This document shows positions 47,888-59,382 of a stretch of 64,000 nucleotides of DNA, piece by piece. Origin of the DNA: Campylobacterota bacterium (GTDB lineage Bacteria > Campylobacterota > Campylobacteria > Campylobacterales > Nitratiruptoraceae); assembly GCA_015494715.1 (NCBI GenBank), contig WGAT01000068.1, positions 1 to 64,000 on the forward strand. Reading direction: 5' to 3'. Below the pieces are notes generated by a model, which had not been told where the DNA came from, did not search any database, and saw only the letters and a list, made by a program, of their open reading frames with translations. Position numbers and translations under genes: made by a program. The number at the start of each line of letters is the position of its first letter. Within the stretch, counting starts at the first letter, position 1.

Positions 47888-48229
<342 letters not shown>

Positions 48230-48271: not shown

Positions 48272-48778
48272 TCAAAGGATCTCCACCTCTTCGGCTGGAG
48301 TTTCGTCCAAGATCTCTTTGGCTTTGTTGACGATCTCCTCGTCGGCGTGGACAAGTAAAAGATATTTGCCTTGTCGTACAAGATCTTCGAGTTTTTTAGC
48401 CTCTATCTCATCCATTCCCCATTCGATCAAAGCGTCGGCTAAACTAAAGACCGCTCCGCCAGTGAGCGCTCCGCCTAAAGCTCCGCTCAAAGCCGCGGCG
48501 ATTGGGCCAGCACCCACGATGGGTCCAAATCCCGGAACGATAAAAAAGATTCCTCCGGCCAAGGCTCCAAGGATCGCTCCCCAAAAAGCGCCTTGCGCTC
48601 CCCAAAAAAGGATATCGCTATCCTCTTTTTCCATTTCGTACTTCTCTATCGCCTCTTCGTGGCCCTTGGCGATGACGGAGATCACTTTGCGATCGATCCC
48701 GCTCTGCATCAGTTTTTTTACCGCCTCTTTAACATCTTCTTTTTTGTCATAGACGGCTACGAGTAACTCTTCTCTCAT
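48272..48778 (-). CDS. DUF1269/glycine-zipper-like protein
   Basis: N-terminal YflT-like; glycine-rich hydrophobic centre ALAGGIFFIVPGFGPIVGAGPIAAALSGALGGALTGG. Confidence 0.72.
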   Translation of the reverse strand: MREELLVAVYDKKEDVKEAVKKLMQSGIDRKVISVIAKGHEEAIEKYEMEKEDSDILFWGAQGAFWGAILGALAGGIFFIVPGFGPIVGAGPIAAALSGALGGALTGGAVFSLADALIEWGMDEIEAKKLEDLVRQGKYLLLVHADEEIVNKAKEILDETPAEEVEIL

Positions 48779-48855: not shown

Positions 48856-50751
48856 TTAAAGGTGGATATCCATAAAAATTTCGCTAAAACGCTGGTATCT
48901 GTTTTTAGGAGCCACCATCTTGTAAACGATATTCGCCAGATCTTTGGGCAAAGAGGGGTTGAGTTTGCTTGGATGCTGTGGGATTTTGGAACCTACGGGC
49001 TGGAAATCGTGTAACTCCAAGTAGGCTGTATCGCTAGTGAGATGGCGGTAAATCTCATTACCGAAGTCAAAAATCTCCAAAGGCTCGAATTTGCCTATTG
49101 GTTTGTGTTTGGCCAGACTGAAGCGATAGTCCTGCACGCCTTGGCGTTTGAGATATGTGTTAAAAAGCATCAAAAAGCCGATGGCCCCTTTGGAGAAGGG
49201 TGCGAGCACCCTTGCATAAAAATCCTCGAAGTGCTCTTTTGGTTTTTTATGCTCTTTGTATTCGATCATTAGCTCTTTTACAAGCTCCTTGGCGTAGCGC
49301 AAAGGGACGGCTTTGAGGATCGTCTGGGCCTCTTTGGCTTTGGCAAGACTCCCTCCTAGCAATATATCGGCTCCATCGACTACTTTGCCATCCTCTTTGG
49401 CCTTGGCCCCTACGAAGCCAATATCCCCCCACTCGTGGATACCACACCCTTTGACGCAAGCGCTCCAATACATCCGCACTTTTACATCCTCCAAAGGCAC
49501 CTCTTTGGTCAGATACTCCGACATTTTGATGGCATCTGGCTTGTTGGGGATGACGCCGTAGCTGCATTCATTCTTACCGGCGCAGGCGACGAGATTGTTG
49601 AAGTAGGGGGAGTTGACATTTTTGTATTTGGCGAAAAATGGATGCTCTAAGACTTTGGTTCTGTCCGAAATATTGGTGATATAGAGATTTTGCTCTACGC
49701 TGAGACGAAGCTCTCCATCGCACTCTTTGGCGATAGTGGCCGCCTCTATCATATCGCTGCCGCTAAAGATGCCTCCGGGGACTATCGCATGCAAAGCAAA
49801 AGAGCCGTTTTTGAGCTGGATGCTGCCTTGATTGTTGTCGAAGTGCTCCATACGGCACAAGGTCTCACCGGCTCTTTTGAAAGATTGTCCTGCAAACTCT
49901 TCCAAAGCGGCCCGAAAACTCTCCATTCCCACCGATTCGATCAAAAAATAGAGGCGATTTTTGTTGCGGTTGTCCCGAAAGCCATACTCCTTGTACAGCT
50001 CGATCAGCTTTTCATAAAAGCCCACCACTTCATCGGGCCGTAAAAATATATCGGCGTTTTTGGCAATTTTTCCCACCTTGCCGCCCAGATAGACGTTGTA
50101 GCCCACCACTCCTTCTCCCATCGCCAGTACGAAACAAGCGTCGTGTCCATAGGCGTTACAGCGGTTGGTGATAGAGGAGGTGATAGCGGTGTTGAATTTT
50201 CTAGGCAGTGAGCCGATCCACTCCTCCTTTTTCAAAAAGAGCTCTTGCATCTGTCGCAAGATCGGAAAACTTTCAAAAAAATTGTCATAAGCCAAGCCAT
50301 CAAGAGGATCACTTACGATGTTTCGTAGGTTGTCGATCCCCGTTTGGTAGGTGGTAATTCCCACACTCTCCAGCCGCTCAAAGATTGTGGGTACATCCTC
50401 TATGTGGATGTAGCGCAGCTCCACCTGCATTCTGGTGGTCAAATCGATATAGTCGTTGCCAAACTCCTTGGTCACCTCCCCCAAAGTCTTGGCTTGCTCG
50501 GGAGTAAGGCGACCACCGGGGATTCGCACCCGCAGCATAAACTGCTTTGGCGTAAATTCATCTTTGTCAAAGAGTCCAAAATATTTCAAAAAAACCGCTT
50601 TGTCCTCTTTGGTGAGGCTCTCATACCCTTTTTTGCTAGCTTCCAAGAGCCGCTCCCACGCCTCTTTGGGCGAGAGGGTCTGCTTGATCTTTTCGACTTT
50701 ATTGAGTTTTTTGCTTCGTTGCTCTTTTACTTGGCGCAGTTTTTCTATCAT
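48856..50751 (-). CDS. nirA: Assimilatory nitrite/sulfite reductase (siroheme/4Fe-4S) with C-terminal extension
   Basis: Paired ferredoxin-like halves; 4Fe-4S/siroheme Cys CAGKNECSYG and CVKGCGIHEWGDIGFVG; about 100-aa C-terminal extension. Confidence 0.9.
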   Translation of the reverse strand: MIEKLRQVKEQRSKKLNKVEKIKQTLSPKEAWERLLEASKKGYESLTKEDKAVFLKYFGLFDKDEFTPKQFMLRVRIPGGRLTPEQAKTLGEVTKEFGNDYIDLTTRMQVELRYIHIEDVPTIFERLESVGITTYQTGIDNLRNIVSDPLDGLAYDNFFESFPILRQMQELFLKKEEWIGSLPRKFNTAITSSITNRCNAYGHDACFVLAMGEGVVGYNVYLGGKVGKIAKNADIFLRPDEVVGFYEKLIELYKEYGFRDNRNKNRLYFLIESVGMESFRAALEEFAGQSFKRAGETLCRMEHFDNNQGSIQLKNGSFALHAIVPGGIFSGSDMIEAATIAKECDGELRLSVEQNLYITNISDRTKVLEHPFFAKYKNVNSPYFNNLVACAGKNECSYGVIPNKPDAIKMSEYLTKEVPLEDVKVRMYWSACVKGCGIHEWGDIGFVGAKAKEDGKVVDGADILLGGSLAKAKEAQTILKAVPLRYAKELVKELMIEYKEHKKPKEHFEDFYARVLAPFSKGAIGFLMLFNTYLKRQGVQDYRFSLAKHKPIGKFEPLEIFDFGNEIYRHLTSDTAYLELHDFQPVGSKIPQHPSKLNPSLPKDLANIVYKMVAPKNRYQRFSEIFMDIHL

Positions 50752-53030
50752 TCTTGCTCCTGTTTGATTGTGAAAGTACTTTGTCGCTCCTTTGTCGCTC
50801 TTTCATACTCCAAAATTCCAGCGATCGGCTCGTGCAAAGAAATGCCTGCCGGATAGGCCTCGGAGTGGAGCTGGACGGCTGTTTGTTTGTAGTTTGGCTC
50901 GCCGCTGATGGGATCGAAAAGGCTTTGGGTGACCATGTTGATGAGCTGGGTATTGTAATGGAAAGGGACAAAAACGGTACCGGGGGCTACGAGATTGGTG
51001 ACCCGCACCACCAGATTTTCCACCTTGCCCCTAGGACTCGAGATTGCGATACGGTCGTAGTTTTTGACTCTTAGGCGTTTGGCGTCTTTTGGGTTGATAT
51101 CGATCCAAGCTTCTGGCGCCAGGTCGTCGAGGATCTTGATCTGGCCCGTTTTGGTGCGGGTATGGAAATGCTCCACCGTTCGGCCCGTATTGAGGATGAA
51201 AGGATATTTTTGGCTTGGCGGCTCTTCGAGGGGTTTGTAGTGGGCGCCGATAAATCTGGCTTTGCCATCTTCATGCTCAAAGCGCATATCTTCTCCATAG
51301 AGCCGTTTACAGCCATTGGGGTACTTTTCGTTGCAGGGCCACTGGATCCCGCCTAGCTTCTCAATTTTTTCGTAGCTCATCCCGCTATAGTCACAGAGTC
51401 TATTTTTGCTGATCTTTTTTATCTCCTCAAAGGCGTCTTTGGGCTCGCTCCACCCTCCAAAGAGCTTGTCATGTCGATCGAAATGTTTGGCGAACTCCAA
51501 AATGATGTCAAAATCGCTTTTGGATTTGGCCGGCGGCTCCACCGCCTTGTTGGCCTTGTTGCAGCGCCGCTCGCTGTTGGTGTAGCACCCCTCCTTTTCA
51601 CCCCACGTAGCGGCGGCAAAGACCATATCGGCGATCTTGGCCGTATCGCTCATAAAGGCGTCTTGGACCAGTAAGAAGTCAAGCTTTTGAAGAGCACGTC
51701 GTAGCTTCTTTTGATCTGGGAAGCTGACCAGCGGATTGGTGCAGACCACCCACAGCCCCTTGATCTCGCCTCTATCGATAGCGTCGACGATGTCGGCATA
51801 TTTGTAGCCTCGATGGTCTGGGATCCACTCTACAGGCACATCGATCAAAGAGGCGAACGCTTCTCTATCCTTTTGGCTCTCAAACTTTCTGTATCCGGGA
51901 ATCGCCGAGGTAAAGCCAAACTCCCTCGTCCCCATGGCGTTACACTGGCCCGTGATGCTAAAGGGACCAGTGCCTTCCTTGCCGATGTTGCCCGTCATCA
52001 TGGCCAGGTTGTTGATGGCACTCACCGTATCGGTGCCTTGTGCCGACTGGTTGACTCCCATAGTCCAGCAGATGAGGGTTTTGTTGTTGGCCACAAGCTG
52101 GGCGAGGCGATAGAGGGTCTTGGTATCGATGCCCGTGATATGAGCTACTTCGCCCGGCTTGTAGTGCTGGATATGTTTGACAAAATCGCTCCAGCCGTTG
52201 GTGCGGTTTTTGATGAACCGCTCATCATACCACCCTTGCTCCCAGATGATGTAGGCTAGAGCATTGAGCAAGGCCAGATCGGTTCTAGGCTTGATGGGCA
52301 GATAGATGTTGGCCAGTTGACTCGTTTTGGAGCGTCTGGGGTCTGCTACGATGATGGTTTTGTTTTTTCTGTTTTTCATCAGATGATGGACGATGATGGG
52401 ATGGTTGTCGGCCAAGTTGGCTCCAATGACAAAGACCACCTCCGCTTTTGCGATATCCTCATAACTGGCCGTAGGCCCGTCGCTGCCAAAGCTTTGCTTG
52501 TAGCCGCTCACCGCACTGGCCATACAGAGGGTGGTGTTGCCGTCATAGTTTCTCGTATCGAGCCCTAGCTGGACAAATTTGCCAAGGGCGTAGAACTCTT
52601 CGGTCAGCAGCTGTCCCGTGGAGATGACGGCAAAGGCGTTGTTGCCGTGCTCTTGCTGGATCTTTTTGATCCTTTTGGCCGCTTCGGCGTACGCTTCCTC
52701 CCAGCGCACATCGGTGAGCTGGCCCCCTTTTTTGATCTTTGGATACAACACCCGGTTGGAGGCGTAGAGCATCTGGTGCTCGCTCAGCCCCTTTGGGCAC
52801 AGAGTGCCGATATTGACATCGTGGGCGGGATCGCCTTTGGTGAGAGTCGCTTTGCCCTCCTTGACACCGATATACAGTCCACACCCCACGCCGCAGTAGC
52901 CACAGGTCGATTTGACCCAGTGCTCTGGCTTTTTGGCTCTGGGCAGTTTACCAAAGATTGGATCGTCTACCATCTCGTTCTCTTTGAGCTTGACGTCAAA
53001 TCCCAAAAAATTTTTTATTTTTTCTAGCAT
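50748..53030 (-). CDS. nasA: Assimilatory (Nas/Nap-type) molybdopterin nitrate reductase
   Basis: CGYCGVGCGLYIGVKEGKATLTKGDPAHDVNIGTLCPKG; TTLCMASAVSGYKQSFGSDGP; no Tat signal. Confidence 0.92.
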   Translation of the reverse strand: MLEKIKNFLGFDVKLKENEMVDDPIFGKLPRAKKPEHWVKSTCGYCGVGCGLYIGVKEGKATLTKGDPAHDVNIGTLCPKGLSEHQMLYASNRVLYPKIKKGGQLTDVRWEEAYAEAAKRIKKIQQEHGNNAFAVISTGQLLTEEFYALGKFVQLGLDTRNYDGNTTLCMASAVSGYKQSFGSDGPTASYEDIAKAEVVFVIGANLADNHPIIVHHLMKNRKNKTIIVADPRRSKTSQLANIYLPIKPRTDLALLNALAYIIWEQGWYDERFIKNRTNGWSDFVKHIQHYKPGEVAHITGIDTKTLYRLAQLVANNKTLICWTMGVNQSAQGTDTVSAINNLAMMTGNIGKEGTGPFSITGQCNAMGTREFGFTSAIPGYRKFESQKDREAFASLIDVPVEWIPDHRGYKYADIVDAIDRGEIKGLWVVCTNPLVSFPDQKKLRRALQKLDFLLVQDAFMSDTAKIADMVFAAATWGEKEGCYTNSERRCNKANKAVEPPAKSKSDFDIILEFAKHFDRHDKLFGGWSEPKDAFEEIKKISKNRLCDYSGMSYEKIEKLGGIQWPCNEKYPNGCKRLYGEDMRFEHEDGKARFIGAHYKPLEEPPSQKYPFILNTGRTVEHFHTRTKTGQIKILDDLAPEAWIDINPKDAKRLRVKNYDRIAISSPRGKVENLVVRVTNLVAPGTVFVPFHYNTQLINMVTQSLFDPISGEPNYKQTAVQLHSEAYPAGISLHEPIAGILEYERATKERQSTFTIKQEQE

Positions 53031-53039
53031 CTTCGCTCC

Positions 53040-54617
53040 TTATGGTCGTTGGGAGCCGGCGAAGAAGTTGCCCGGCATCCCCGTCTTGATGGCGGTGGAG
53101 TAAAAGAGCAATCGTCCGACAAACTCGCTGGCAAAGCCCAGTACCACCGCCAAGAGGGTAAACAAAAACCCAAAACCCACAGAGCCGGCGTTCAAAGCGA
53201 CGATGGCCAAAAGGGGCAGAGCCAGAGCCGCCAGCGGGAGGCTTCTTTTGCGAAAATCGTAGAGGCTTTTGAAATTTTCTCTTAGCAGTCTGGCCGAGCG
53301 CTCGATCTGATAGGCAAAGGGATTGTCTGGATCGATTCGCTCGTAAAACCTTTGAGACTCCCAAAAAAGATAGAGCTGGGCGGCTCCAAGAAGTATGGAG
53401 ATGGCCAGCAAGATATTGGCCACGTTGACTTGATGCTGGGCGATGGCCAAAAGAGCTAAAATGAGCGTGCCGATATAGCCCGTACTAAAGAATCGATAGG
53501 TGGTGGTGACTCTGTTCCATGTGGGTTTGGCCGGTACTCGGTAGATCATCGACTGGGCGTAGATGCCATAGATCCCGATAGCCAAAGTCACAGCCTCTAC
53601 CATTATGCGCAAAAAGCCGTCGATCCCTAGATAATAGAGCAAGGCCACGACACCCATGCCGGCCACGAAAGCCCCCAAAGCGGCGGCTTCACGGCTTAGC
53701 CAAGAGGTTTTGAGATTTTTCATAGCCGTTATCGCTTTGAATGGTCTGCCAAGATGCAAGGCCGAAAGTGGCAGACCGATGGCGGCCAATGCGAAGATGA
53801 CAAAGGCCATGAGAGGGCTTGGTTTTGGCAGATTGGTAAAGTGTGCGGCGATATCGCCTAAAAATAGAGCCCCAAAGCCTATGAGGCTCACTTGTGTGAG
53901 CACCGTCATAAAGACCAGCGGCCACTCTTTGTGGGCCGGTTTGATGAGATCCTCGTCCATTGGATGCAATGCTTGTGGCATATTTTTAGGCAGGGTGATG
54001 CGGGTAGTGGAGTTGGTGAGTCTAGCATCTACCAAGAAAGGAGCGTTGCCCTCCTTGTCGATATCCTCTTGAAGCCACTTTTTGGTATCGACCACCTCGA
54101 TCTCGATAGCACCCTCAGGGCAGGCCTGCACGCATGCCGGCGTCTGACCCGCTTCGATGCGATCGTAGCACATGTGGCACTTGGTGACGATGTGGCGGCT
54201 CTCATCAAAGACCGGCACGTCGTAAGGGCAGTTCCACGTACAATATTGGCAGCCGATACAGGCTTCGTCGTCGTGGAAGACGATGCCGTTGTCAAATTTG
54301 ATATAGCTGTTGGTAGGACACCCGATCAAGCAGGCTGGATCGATGCAATGGTTGCAGCTAAGGGATAAAAACATCTGCAATACGTTGGGAAACTCGCCTC
54401 CCTCCACTTCGCCCACTCGCCGCCATTTGATTTGGGCTGGATTGTTGTTTTGCTCGTTGCAGGCCACCTCGCAGCAGTGGCAGCCGATACATTTGGTAGC
54501 GTCGAAATGGAATCTATACTGTTGATTTTCTTTAAGAGGGGGCAGGTCGATACGATAACTTCCACACTGCATCCCCGTTTTGGCTTTGTACTCTATAAAG
54601 CTCTCTACCGCACTCAT
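53040..54617 (-). CDS. DmsB-DmsC fusion: four-cluster ferredoxin subunit plus membrane anchor
   Basis: CIGCHCCEVAC, CNHCIDPACLIGCP, CIGCQYCTWNCPYD, CHMCYDRIEAGQTPACVQACP, then DmsC-like multi-TM region. Confidence 0.9.
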   Translation of the reverse strand: MSAVESFIEYKAKTGMQCGSYRIDLPPLKENQQYRFHFDATKCIGCHCCEVACNEQNNNPAQIKWRRVGEVEGGEFPNVLQMFLSLSCNHCIDPACLIGCPTNSYIKFDNGIVFHDDEACIGCQYCTWNCPYDVPVFDESRHIVTKCHMCYDRIEAGQTPACVQACPEGAIEIEVVDTKKWLQEDIDKEGNAPFLVDARLTNSTTRITLPKNMPQALHPMDEDLIKPAHKEWPLVFMTVLTQVSLIGFGALFLGDIAAHFTNLPKPSPLMAFVIFALAAIGLPLSALHLGRPFKAITAMKNLKTSWLSREAAALGAFVAGMGVVALLYYLGIDGFLRIMVEAVTLAIGIYGIYAQSMIYRVPAKPTWNRVTTTYRFFSTGYIGTLILALLAIAQHQVNVANILLAISILLGAAQLYLFWESQRFYERIDPDNPFAYQIERSARLLRENFKSLYDFRKRSLPLAALALPLLAIVALNAGSVGFGFLFTLLAVVLGFASEFVGRLLFYSTAIKTGMPGNFFAGSQRP

Positions 54618-54639: not shown

Positions 54640-56265
54640 CTATCCCAGTAACATCAAAATCAAAATAAAATTAAGCACCGCCGAAATCGTAAAAGCCGCT
54701 TTATAGACTTTGAGCGGCTCTCGCTCTATCAGTGAAGCACTAGGATCGAAATAAGGCTTGACTTTTTTTGGGTTTTCCAGCTCGTAGAGCATCTCGCTGT
54801 AGTGCTTGTAGCGTCTGTTTTTATCCCGCTCGATGGCTCGCATAATGATCGATTCTAGCCACAAAGGTACCTTTTTGTTGTAATGGGTCACCGGCTTTGG
54901 CTTTTTGAATGTGGGCTTTTGAAAAGGTTCGATCTCGCCATAGGGGTAACGGCTTGTCAGAGCCTGGTAGAGGGTCACGCCAATGGCGAATATCTCGCTC
55001 CCTTCGCTGATGGGCTCGCCCACGAAACGCTCAGGAGCCAAGTAGCTAGGAGTCCCGGCTCTAGAGGCTATGGAGAAGATCTCGACGATGGAGCCAAAGT
55101 CCACGAGCTTGAAAACCTCTTTGTCTCTTCGTTTGGTGATGAGAATGTTTTGGGGTTTGATGTCGCCATGCACCAGATTGAAGCCTAGCAGGTACTGGCT
55201 GCTGCGAAGCAAAAATTTGGCCAAATCCACCGCCTGGTCGATATGGAGTGGATGCTTGGCGATCCTTTTTTCTAGCGTATCCCCCTCAATATACTCCATC
55301 ACATAGTAGCGAAGTGTCCTATTTTTGGGGATCACGGCCTTTGGGAAAAATCCAGCTTTGAGCCGTTTGGCGTTCCACGCCTCTTGGACGAAGAGATCGA
55401 GCAGCTGAGTATCCTCGGCCGCCTCTTTGGGAGGAAATTTGAGCACATATTTTTTACCCTTATTAGTGGCGAGCCATGTGCGCTCGTTTTGGATGAGGGG
55501 CCGCTCGAGGCGATAGCCATCGATCACCTGAACTTTTGCGAGGCTTTGGGGGATAGGGAGGTTTTGCTGTTTGAGGCGGACTCTTTGGTCGATCTGCTTG
55601 ATCTGTATGGTTACCGCACTCGTGTCGTCTGGCAAATCATCCCCCACTTTTTTGCTGGCATATTTGACCAGATTGGAAGCGCCCAAAGGGAGCTTTTGGG
55701 CGATCTCTTGCTCCTTGAGTACCGCCGTGAGCCCATCGCTGCACAACAGGATATGATCCCCCGCCTTTACGAAGTTTTCAAAAAAGTAGGGTTCTACCTT
55801 TTCGCTCATCCCTATGGCTTGTGTGAGAATATGACCCTGTTCCTCGGTGGTATGGTCCATCGAAAGCTTTTGGAGCTTGCCATCTCTTAGCAAAAAAATT
55901 GGGCTATCGCCCACATTGGCCCCATAGAGCCTCGATCCTTGGATGACGATGATACTAAGAGTTGTGAGCATCTCTGGACGCTCAAACTCCAGCAGTGACT
56001 CTTTATAGAGGATCTCGTTGATGTTTTTGATAAAAGTGGCGAGGCTCTTTTCGATATCCCAGCTTTGGGGTCTGGTTTTGAAGTTGCCAAGCATATAGTT
56101 TAGGGTTCGCTGGGCGGCTTCTCGTCCAGCTTCGGCGCTGCCCACGCCGTCACAGACCACACCTACCAAAATATCCTCAAACAGCCGCACGCCATAGGCG
56201 TCGTCGCTTTGGAGCTCGCTGCCTTTTGCCAGACCAAAGGCGGCCGTTTTGTACAAGGAGTGCAT
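54640..56265 (-). CDS. Bifunctional PP2C-type phosphatase/Ser-Thr protein kinase with C-terminal TM
   Basis: PP2C: VVCDGVGSAEAGREAA, GANVGDSPIFLLRDG, LLCSDGLT, DDTSAVTI; kinase: YVLKFP, LVHGDIKPQNILI, KLVDFGS, GTPSYLAPERF. Confidence 0.92.
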   Translation of the reverse strand: MHSLYKTAAFGLAKGSELQSDDAYGVRLFEDILVGVVCDGVGSAEAGREAAQRTLNYMLGNFKTRPQSWDIEKSLATFIKNINEILYKESLLEFERPEMLTTLSIIVIQGSRLYGANVGDSPIFLLRDGKLQKLSMDHTTEEQGHILTQAIGMSEKVEPYFFENFVKAGDHILLCSDGLTAVLKEQEIAQKLPLGASNLVKYASKKVGDDLPDDTSAVTIQIKQIDQRVRLKQQNLPIPQSLAKVQVIDGYRLERPLIQNERTWLATNKGKKYVLKFPPKEAAEDTQLLDLFVQEAWNAKRLKAGFFPKAVIPKNRTLRYYVMEYIEGDTLEKRIAKHPLHIDQAVDLAKFLLRSSQYLLGFNLVHGDIKPQNILITKRRDKEVFKLVDFGSIVEIFSIASRAGTPSYLAPERFVGEPISEGSEIFAIGVTLYQALTSRYPYGEIEPFQKPTFKKPKPVTHYNKKVPLWLESIIMRAIERDKNRRYKHYSEMLYELENPKKVKPYFDPSASLIEREPLKVYKAAFTISAVLNFILILMLLG

Positions 56266-56268
56266 CGC

Positions 56269-57546
56269 TTAGATCTTTCCTCCAGCGTGCACGCCCCAAG
56301 TGGTGCGCCATCTGGTCTTGACCATACTCAGTCCTACAATGGCTAGCGCCGCAAGGGCCGCAAAGATAAAAAATCCCACGCTATAGCTATTGAAAGCCGC
56401 CTTGCTCCATCCAAGCGTTTTGACCAATACCGTACCGCCAAGCCCTCCGGCACATCCGACGATTCCGGTCATAATACCCATATCTTTGCCAAATCGCTGA
56501 GGGACGAGCTGAAAGACCGCCCCGTTGGCCATACCCAAAAAGGCCATGATGAGAAAGAGGATCAAGATAGCTATATAAAAATTGTTGACGAGCAAAGTGT
56601 TGAGGGTAGCGAGCACGGCTACACCCCCAAAGAAGATATACAAGGATTTGACACCGCCCATCTTGTCGGCGATCGCTCCGCCAACGGGACGCAGCATCGC
56701 TCCAGCGAAGATACAGAGTGCCCCAAAATATCCGGCCACTACCTGCACGTTTGGCTCGTGCAGCAGCTGCAAACCGATCTGGGCCATCTCGTCTTTGTAC
56801 ACATCCATTAAGTAGACTTTCATATAGTTGGCAAAGCCCACGAAACCGCCAAAGCTCACCGCATAAAAGAGGCTAAACCACCAAGTATCTCTATCTTTCA
56901 GTAATTTAAGGTAGTCCGAGAGCCTCTTTTTGCGTGGCTGGTAAACTGATGGAGGAGCGTCTTTGGCCAAAATAATGTAGGTAGCCAAAATGATAGTAGA
57001 GAGGATGCCTCCCACCAAAAAGACCGTAGGCCATCCCCAAAGCTCGGCGATCTTTGGAGCGAAGATATAATCGATGACCACTCCGATATTCCCAGCCCCA
57101 GCAAGTCCCAAAACCAGCCCTTGAAGCCTTGGGGGATACCATTGGCCAGCCTGCGGCAGTGCCACGGCGAAACTGGCCCCGGCAAATCCAAGACCAAAAG
57201 CCACGGCCAAAAGCTCGTAGTAGGTGATGCTCTCTCCTCGAAAGTAGGTGTAAAAGAGCGAGGCGATGACGATCGATTGGGCGATGATGGCGGTTTTCTT
57301 GGGGCCGATGTTGTCCACCAAAAATCCCAGCACGATTCTAAGGATCGCTCCACCAAGGATCGGGATGGCGAGCAGGGTCGCTTTTTGGTTGGCATCTAAA
57401 ATGTAGCCGTGTTTGGCTAATGAAGCGCTAATCTCCGTAGCTAGAGGTCCCAGCATCGTCCAGACCATAAAACTAAAATCAAAATATAAAAAAGCGGCTA
57501 TTAGCGTAGGGAGGTGCCCAGCACTCTTGAGCTCTCCTAATTTCAT
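56269..57546 (-). CDS. narK: NarK-family nitrate/nitrite MFS transporter
   Basis: FMVWTMLGPLATEI; RIVLGFLVDNIGPKK; FGLGFAGASFAVALPQAGQWYPPRLQGLVLGLAGAGNIGV. Confidence 0.93.
   Translation of the reverse strand: MKLGELKSAGHLPTLIAAFLYFDFSFMVWTMLGPLATEISASLAKHGYILDANQKATLLAIPILGGAILRIVLGFLVDNIGPKKTAIIAQSIVIASLFYTYFRGESITYYELLAVAFGLGFAGASFAVALPQAGQWYPPRLQGLVLGLAGAGNIGVVIDYIFAPKIAELWGWPTVFLVGGILSTIILATYIILAKDAPPSVYQPRKKRLSDYLKLLKDRDTWWFSLFYAVSFGGFVGFANYMKVYLMDVYKDEMAQIGLQLLHEPNVQVVAGYFGALCIFAGAMLRPVGGAIADKMGGVKSLYIFFGGVAVLATLNTLLVNNFYIAILILFLIMAFLGMANGAVFQLVPQRFGKDMGIMTGIVGCAGGLGGTVLVKTLGWSKAAFNSYSVGFFIFAALAALAIVGLSMVKTRWRTTWGVHAGGKI

Positions 57547-57590: not shown

Positions 57591-59382
<1,792 letters not shown>

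Follow-up and report, generated by a model that had tools for sequence, protein, structure and literature searches.

A kinase C-lobe fragment at the C-terminus of siroheme nitrite reductase, related to the PP2C-kinase of the same operon

The nas operon and the layout of NirA

The window analyzed here is a 64,000-nucleotide stretch from a member of the Campylobacterota (contig WGAT01000068.1, positions 1 to 64,000), and whole-genome searches were made in its source genome (1.69 Mb, 102 contigs, 99.87% complete). The window contains a nas operon of five genes, all on the minus strand, with gaps of 3 to 22 bp or a 4 bp overlap between neighbors. The operon opens with an MFS (NarK-like) nitrate/nitrite transporter (56269-57546; Pfam MFS_1), which ends 3 bp before the gene for a 541-aa protein made of a PP2C phosphatase, a Ser/Thr kinase and a C-terminal hydrophobic, putative transmembrane segment (54640-56265). 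These are followed by an Fe-S/DmsC-like membrane anchor fusion protein (53040-54617; Pfam Fer4_11 and DmsC), a nasA-type molybdopterin nitrate reductase (50748-53030; Pfam), and, overlapping the latter by 4 bp, nirA (48856-50751), the final gene, which encodes a siroheme/4Fe-4S nitrite reductase of 631 aa.

The operon PP2C-kinase was the sole PF00069 match above the cut-off in the whole genome. In Methylocystis, Azospirillum, Acinetobacter and Methylobacterium, the PP2C-kinase gene adjoins an MFS, nitrate/nitrite or formate/nitrite transporter gene. A role as a defence kinase was considered and rejected, because the PADLOC models matched the protein through the generic kinase domain only.

Other features of the locus were also recorded. 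The 4Fe-4S dicluster/DmsC-like fusion (53040-54617, minus strand) is paired with the operon nitrate reductase, which suggests quinol-fed nitrate reduction in a seemingly assimilatory operon. Two closely similar PII (GlnK/GlnB) genes (47891-48229 and 57684-58022) flank the nas operon, and one of them lies directly 3' of an ammonium transporter gene. Between a PII gene and nirA, the product (168 aa) of a minus-strand gene (48272-48778) combines a YflT stress domain with a hydrophobic stretch rich in glycine.

The domain content identifies NirA as a siroheme nitrite reductase with NIR_SIR and ferredoxin-like half domains and all four cysteine ligands. It matched the NCBIfam ferredoxin-nitrite reductase model with an E-value of 2.8e-100 and 336 bits, under the equivalog cut-off of 594 bits, and matched nitrite reductases in the PDB with an E-value of 6e-66. 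The Foldseek match of its predicted model to tobacco nitrite reductase had an E-value of 1.1e-38. Cys 390, 396, 432 and 436, the Fe4S4/siroheme ligands, were invariant in the NirA alignment. The enzyme core, residues 1 to about 520 (49192-50751, minus strand), matches the full fold of the plant, cyanobacterial and mycobacterial ferredoxin-nitrite reductase NirA. It is followed by a connecting segment of residues 521-553 (49093-49191, minus strand) and by a tail of about 78 residues, approximately 554-631 (48859-49092, minus strand). The solved ferredoxin-nitrite reductases found in the PDB stopped matching at query residues 449-511, and none covered the tail. Tail-less relatives of NirA end at 519-535 aa.

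Homology of the NirA tail to the lower kinase C-lobe

The initial annotation had noticed a resemblance between the end of NirA and the C-lobe region of the operon kinase (54778-54993). Both segments were found at their given positions, on the minus strand, and the likeness held: in the local alignment, which scored 81 and had two gaps of one residue each, 23 of about 72 columns were identical. When the tail was shuffled 5000 times and aligned to the kinase, the mean score was 30.1 (sd 4.5, max 56), and no shuffle equalled the real score (z = 11.3). Among 157 ORFs of the window, the second-best score was 47, and segments of NirA short of the tail scored 41 or less. BLASTP of NirA against the operon kinase gave E-values of 2e-6 with whole proteins and 3e-7 with the tail alone.

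Profiles gave the same result. A profile of 37 NirA tails, built with no kinase sequences, was aligned with a profile of seven operon kinases by hhalign with an E-value of 5.3e-15 and a probability of 98.4. In the whole-genome search, the tail profile found NirA (5.7e-43) and the operon kinase (1.3e-15), with no third match at E <= 0.01, and the same pattern was seen in relatives. Against the PDB, the top match of the tail was S. aureus PknB (E 2.5e-8), and the best 60 of 127 listed matches were all kinases. Since the shuffles, the genome-wide profile, the PDB matches and the profile-profile E-value agree, the resemblance reflects homology.

We considered whether the tail might be a helical segment that resembles kinases by chance or convergence. 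In its favor, the tail of the NirA in the window had no PF00069 match at E <= 1 in a single-sequence Pfam search, and the protein does not reach the PF00069 gathering score. Of the 37 tails, 14 matched PF00069 at E <= 0.1 (best 0.001). However, the shuffling z-score, profile E-values of 1e-13 to 1e-17 in many genomes, and the presence of kinases alone among the best 60 of 127 PDB matches leave a chance resemblance with a negligible probability. The relationship is visible only through profiles and relatives and is missed by single-sequence Pfam.

To locate the homologous region, 73 long NirA sequences were scanned with PSSMs made from consecutive kinase segments. In 68 of the 73 sequences the αF matrix scored highest at residue 557 (z 7.6), and in 63 the αI matrix did so at 616 (z 6.9). 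For αH the top overall position was 600, which was best in 26 of the 73, and for αG position 576 was second-best overall (z 4.05) and best in 14. The four placements were colinear. In the NirA of the window, helix αF corresponds to residues 556-572 (49036-49086) with the motif ExxEIFxFG...Y, and is supported by both the PSSM and an AF2 helix. The weakly conserved counterpart of the αG region covers residues 576-591 (48979-49026; PSSM), and helix αH residues 602-613 (48913-48948; PSSM and a predicted helix at 603-613). Helix αI covers residues 616-630 (48862-48906; PSSM), with the subdomain XI arginine at 618 and a VF(S/T)E motif; all four lie on the minus strand. The αF and αI motifs were almost invariant across NirA tails, and E556, E559, R618, F622 and E624 were invariant in a 20-sequence alignment. 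Taken together, sequence comparison identifies the C-terminal ~78 residues of NirA as homologous to subdomains IX-XI (helices αF-αI) of Hanks-type Ser/Thr kinases.

The remaining parts of the PP2C-kinase, namely its PP2C domain, N-lobe, catalytic/activation segment and hydrophobic C-terminus, have no counterpart in the tail. The αC, catalytic loop, DFG and P+1/APE matrices had no consistent placement in the 73 NirA sequences, the matrix of the kinase hydrophobic C-terminal segment had no match at the tail end in the same set, and Pfam matched no PP2C domain in NirA. Two candidate extensions of the homology toward the core were rejected: residues 521-536 (FLMLFNTYL) as the αE helix, where the scan placed no αE, and residues 536-553 as the APE/P+1 segment, which BLASTP aligned but which lie ahead of the PSSM and profile matches beginning at ~553. 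In the full-length model and by Foldseek, the sequence ahead of the tail is occupied by the nitrite reductase core. The absence of HxD and DFG motifs from the reductase, noted in the initial annotation, was thus borne out across NirA sequences, and its view of the tail as a catalytically dead kinase fragment related to the operon kinase agrees with the profiles. Lacking catalytic and nucleotide-binding elements, the tail is a non-catalytic module.

Structure prediction gave helices in the order of the kinase C-lobe. AF2 modeled the tail alone with pLDDT 85.8 and pTM 0.80. The full-length model (pTM 0.85) had helices at 521-536, the only one in the connecting segment, and at 556-572, 603-613 and 622-629, with blocks of the tail at ~83-93 pLDDT save one loop block (70) and the extreme end (67). 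Foldseek with the tail model gave PknB chains as top matches with a probability of 1.00, but with a weak E-value (0.025) and TMq 0.51. With the full-length model, ranks 1-44 were nitrite or sulfite reductases and PknB came next; kinases were the sole folds besides SiR/NiR in the top 50. Because Foldseek E-values are weak for so short a domain, the case rests on the sequence profiles.

Dead kinase domains are known as two-lobed folds, and kinase C-lobes are usually viewed as one half of a two-lobed machine. The tail resembles pseudokinases such as the kinase-homology domain of Rv3910, which was among its Foldseek matches, in being a dead module derived from a kinase. Pseudokinases, however, keep the two-lobed fold, whereas the tail consists of the lower half of the C-lobe (αF-αI) only. 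In open-access full-text literature, outside of which most subscription papers lie, we found no account of a metabolic enzyme that bears an αF-αI-only kinase fragment, or of a NirA with a kinase tail.

Origin and maintenance of the tail

The kinase most closely connected with the tail combines a PP2C phosphatase with a Ser/Thr kinase, is encoded at nitrate/nitrite transporter loci and is named 'bifunctional protein-serine/threonine kinase/phosphatase' by NCBI; its helices αF-αI are homologous to the tail, and its gene belongs to the same operon. In a tree of kinase C-lobe sequences, the NirA tails formed one clade (98/95), and the tails together with campylobacterial and proteobacterial nas PP2C-kinases were split from four other bacterial kinases (98/89). 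With 86 columns, the tree gave no resolved branching order among the tails, the campylobacterial and the proteobacterial nas kinases. Searched against 150 genomes of the phylum, the tail profile gave E-values of 1e-13 to 1e-16 for nas kinases and of 1e-4 to 1e-5 for other kinases. The ExxEIF start of helix αF is common to the tails and the campylobacterial nas kinases, while the other sampled kinases mostly have D. These comparisons place the tail in the nas PP2C-kinase lineage rather than with other Ser/Thr kinases, and its identity and common origin with the nas PP2C-kinase are nearly certain.

The fragment was fused a single time to the end of a complete nitrite reductase, most simply in an ancestor within the Campylobacterota. 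In some genomes (G087 and G166), the kinase gene lies directly 3' of nirA on the same strand, and a deletion fusing nirA with such an adjacent downstream kinase gene would be a simple origin. The tail is widespread in Campylobacterota, and the tree of NirA cores places it in the ancestor of the sampled clade, with about five later degenerations and a single clean loss (8 sequences of 519-535 aa). Intragenomic NirA-like paralogues matched only to about residue 500-560 and lacked the tail. Plasmid-borne NirA had no tail among the matches listed (15 of 114), which ended at residue 511-522.

NirA sequences from 15 Hydrogenothermaceae (Aquificota) formed a single clade nested within Campylobacterota, and therefore fit a single transfer. 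This fits a history in which the NirA gene and its tail passed later from Campylobacterota to Hydrogenothermaceae.

Stepwise decay of the tail was seen at L094, L128, L147, L154, L155 and L056, where tails had internal deletions or had lost the subdomain XI arginine; in some decaying tails, the helix αF start and the (F/W)SE end lasted longest. Modular swapping of the tail was considered for two genomes of the same genus, G009 and G010, whose NirA cores are 98% and tails 65% identical. It was rejected because the DNA alignment showed an ordinary exchanged operon block with its edge inside the tail: in this pair (L198 and L197, respectively), the nas operon is mostly 94-99% identical over ~8 kb and the flanks 53-83%, suggesting recent transfer or recombination of the entire nas operon.

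The dN/dS of the tail was 0.03-0.24 wherever it was computable, in both phyla and including Hydrogenothermaceae, with several pairs saturated at synonymous sites. The tail evolved faster than the NirA core in most pairs. The tail is very probably under purifying selection, and it is thus not recent junk; its decay or loss in several lineages shows that NirA can be active without it.

Possible roles of the tail

The initial annotation had proposed that the tail ties nitrite reductase to the operon's kinase/phosphatase. In such a model, the tail would bind the PP2C-kinase, for example through C-lobe/αG contacts similar to those in kinase dimers or as a decoy for the PP2C domain, and NirA would be phosphorylated or dephosphorylated, or would restrain the kinase. 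The two proteins share an operon, the kinase is the only Hanks kinase above the cut-off in the genome, and front-to-front dimers of kinase domains have been described for PknB (PMC3601408). The distribution of the two genes gave partial support. Among 150 Campylobacterales genomes, 46 had NirA and the kinase, 14 NirA only, 2 the kinase only and 88 neither. This co-occurrence (Fisher p 1.5e-23) was not taken as proof of docking, because both are genes of the nas operon and the tail-specific p is only 0.003. The latter value, which ignores kinship, comes from Campylobacterota genomes: of 55 with a full tail, 45 have the kinase, compared with 5 of 13 whose tail is degenerate or absent. Campylobacterota tails also scored as more kinase-like in kinase-bearing genomes (medians 26.1 vs 9.8 bits, p 0.001). 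On phylogenetically independent pairs of tail and kinase, however, the association was not significant, the 5 informative pairs being too few, and two genomes (G052 and G044) carried the kinase alongside a tail-less NirA.

A further argument against this model comes from Hydrogenothermaceae. The nas kinase was found in none of the 15 genomes of the Hydrogenothermaceae clade on the tree; most had no PF00069 match above the cut-off, and one (G027) has a different kinase. In 121 Aquificota genomes, 25 had a NirA tail and 14 had weaker matches in other, shorter ORFs, which look like standalone kinases; none had both. Two Hydrogenothermaceae operons that were examined keep the MFS transporter and the nitrate reductase (NasA) and lack the kinase. 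Nevertheless, the tails of Hydrogenothermaceae had the greatest likeness to kinases (median 41.4 vs 26.1 bits). The value of the tail is thus not strictly kinase-dependent, and docking to the kinase as its role appears somewhat unlikely, although it may apply in Campylobacterota. As a separate observation, a Hydrogenothermaceae nas operon encodes a molybdopterin nitrate reductase with a C-terminal globin domain (L038:12244-14718, plus strand; PF00042 E 5.7e-12).

We favor the explanation that the tail is a kinase-derived module kept by selection for a docking or assembly role, to which, as a whole, we assign a probability of about 0.6. The tail would act as a protein-interaction module, and its main partner would likely be shared by both phyla; candidates, drawn from gene content alone, are the NarK-type transporter, NasA and NirA itself. 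Such docking would keep NirA at the site of nitrite entry or production. In kinase-bearing species, the recruitment would also bring NirA within reach of the PP2C-kinase, which is probably anchored in the membrane by its hydrophobic C-terminus. Taken by itself, the proposal that the tail docks to a kinase-independent partner is a tentative one, and the tracking of the kinase by tail quality in Campylobacterota counts against it, fitting a kinase-dependent role better.

The tail could alternatively pack on NirA itself as an intramolecular cap that stabilizes the enzyme or shapes access of ferredoxin or to the siroheme, with no outside partner. Its retention without kinases under purifying selection, the pTM of the full-length model with mostly high pLDDT in the tail, and the invariant charged residues E556, E559 and R618 are all consistent with a cap. 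A whole campylobacterial clade and the examined paralogues, however, have NirA without a tail, and most pairs show faster evolution in the tail than in the core. We regard this structural role as doubtful, and about as likely as docking or assembly. A functionless vestige, tolerated as a passenger of the gene fusion, would account for the clean loss and the five or so degenerations, but is very unlikely in view of the low dN/dS in every computable pair from two phyla and the near-invariant αF and αI motifs.

Whichever role it has, the αF-αI portion alone was selectively kept on a redox enzyme in two phyla, one of them without the nas kinase. We also entertain, as an unlikely idea, that this lower C-lobe half became an interaction domain in its own right on a core metabolic enzyme, recruiting the operon kinase/phosphatase in kinase-bearing species and being re-used for a kinase-free partner in Hydrogenothermaceae. 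If true, the recruited kinase/phosphatase would be a built-in on/off switch for nitrite reduction. Under any of these readings, the tail is a specific lead on the target of the PP2C-kinase that is widespread in nitrate-assimilation operons, and on possible post-translational control of nitrogen assimilation in thermophilic chemolithoautotrophs.
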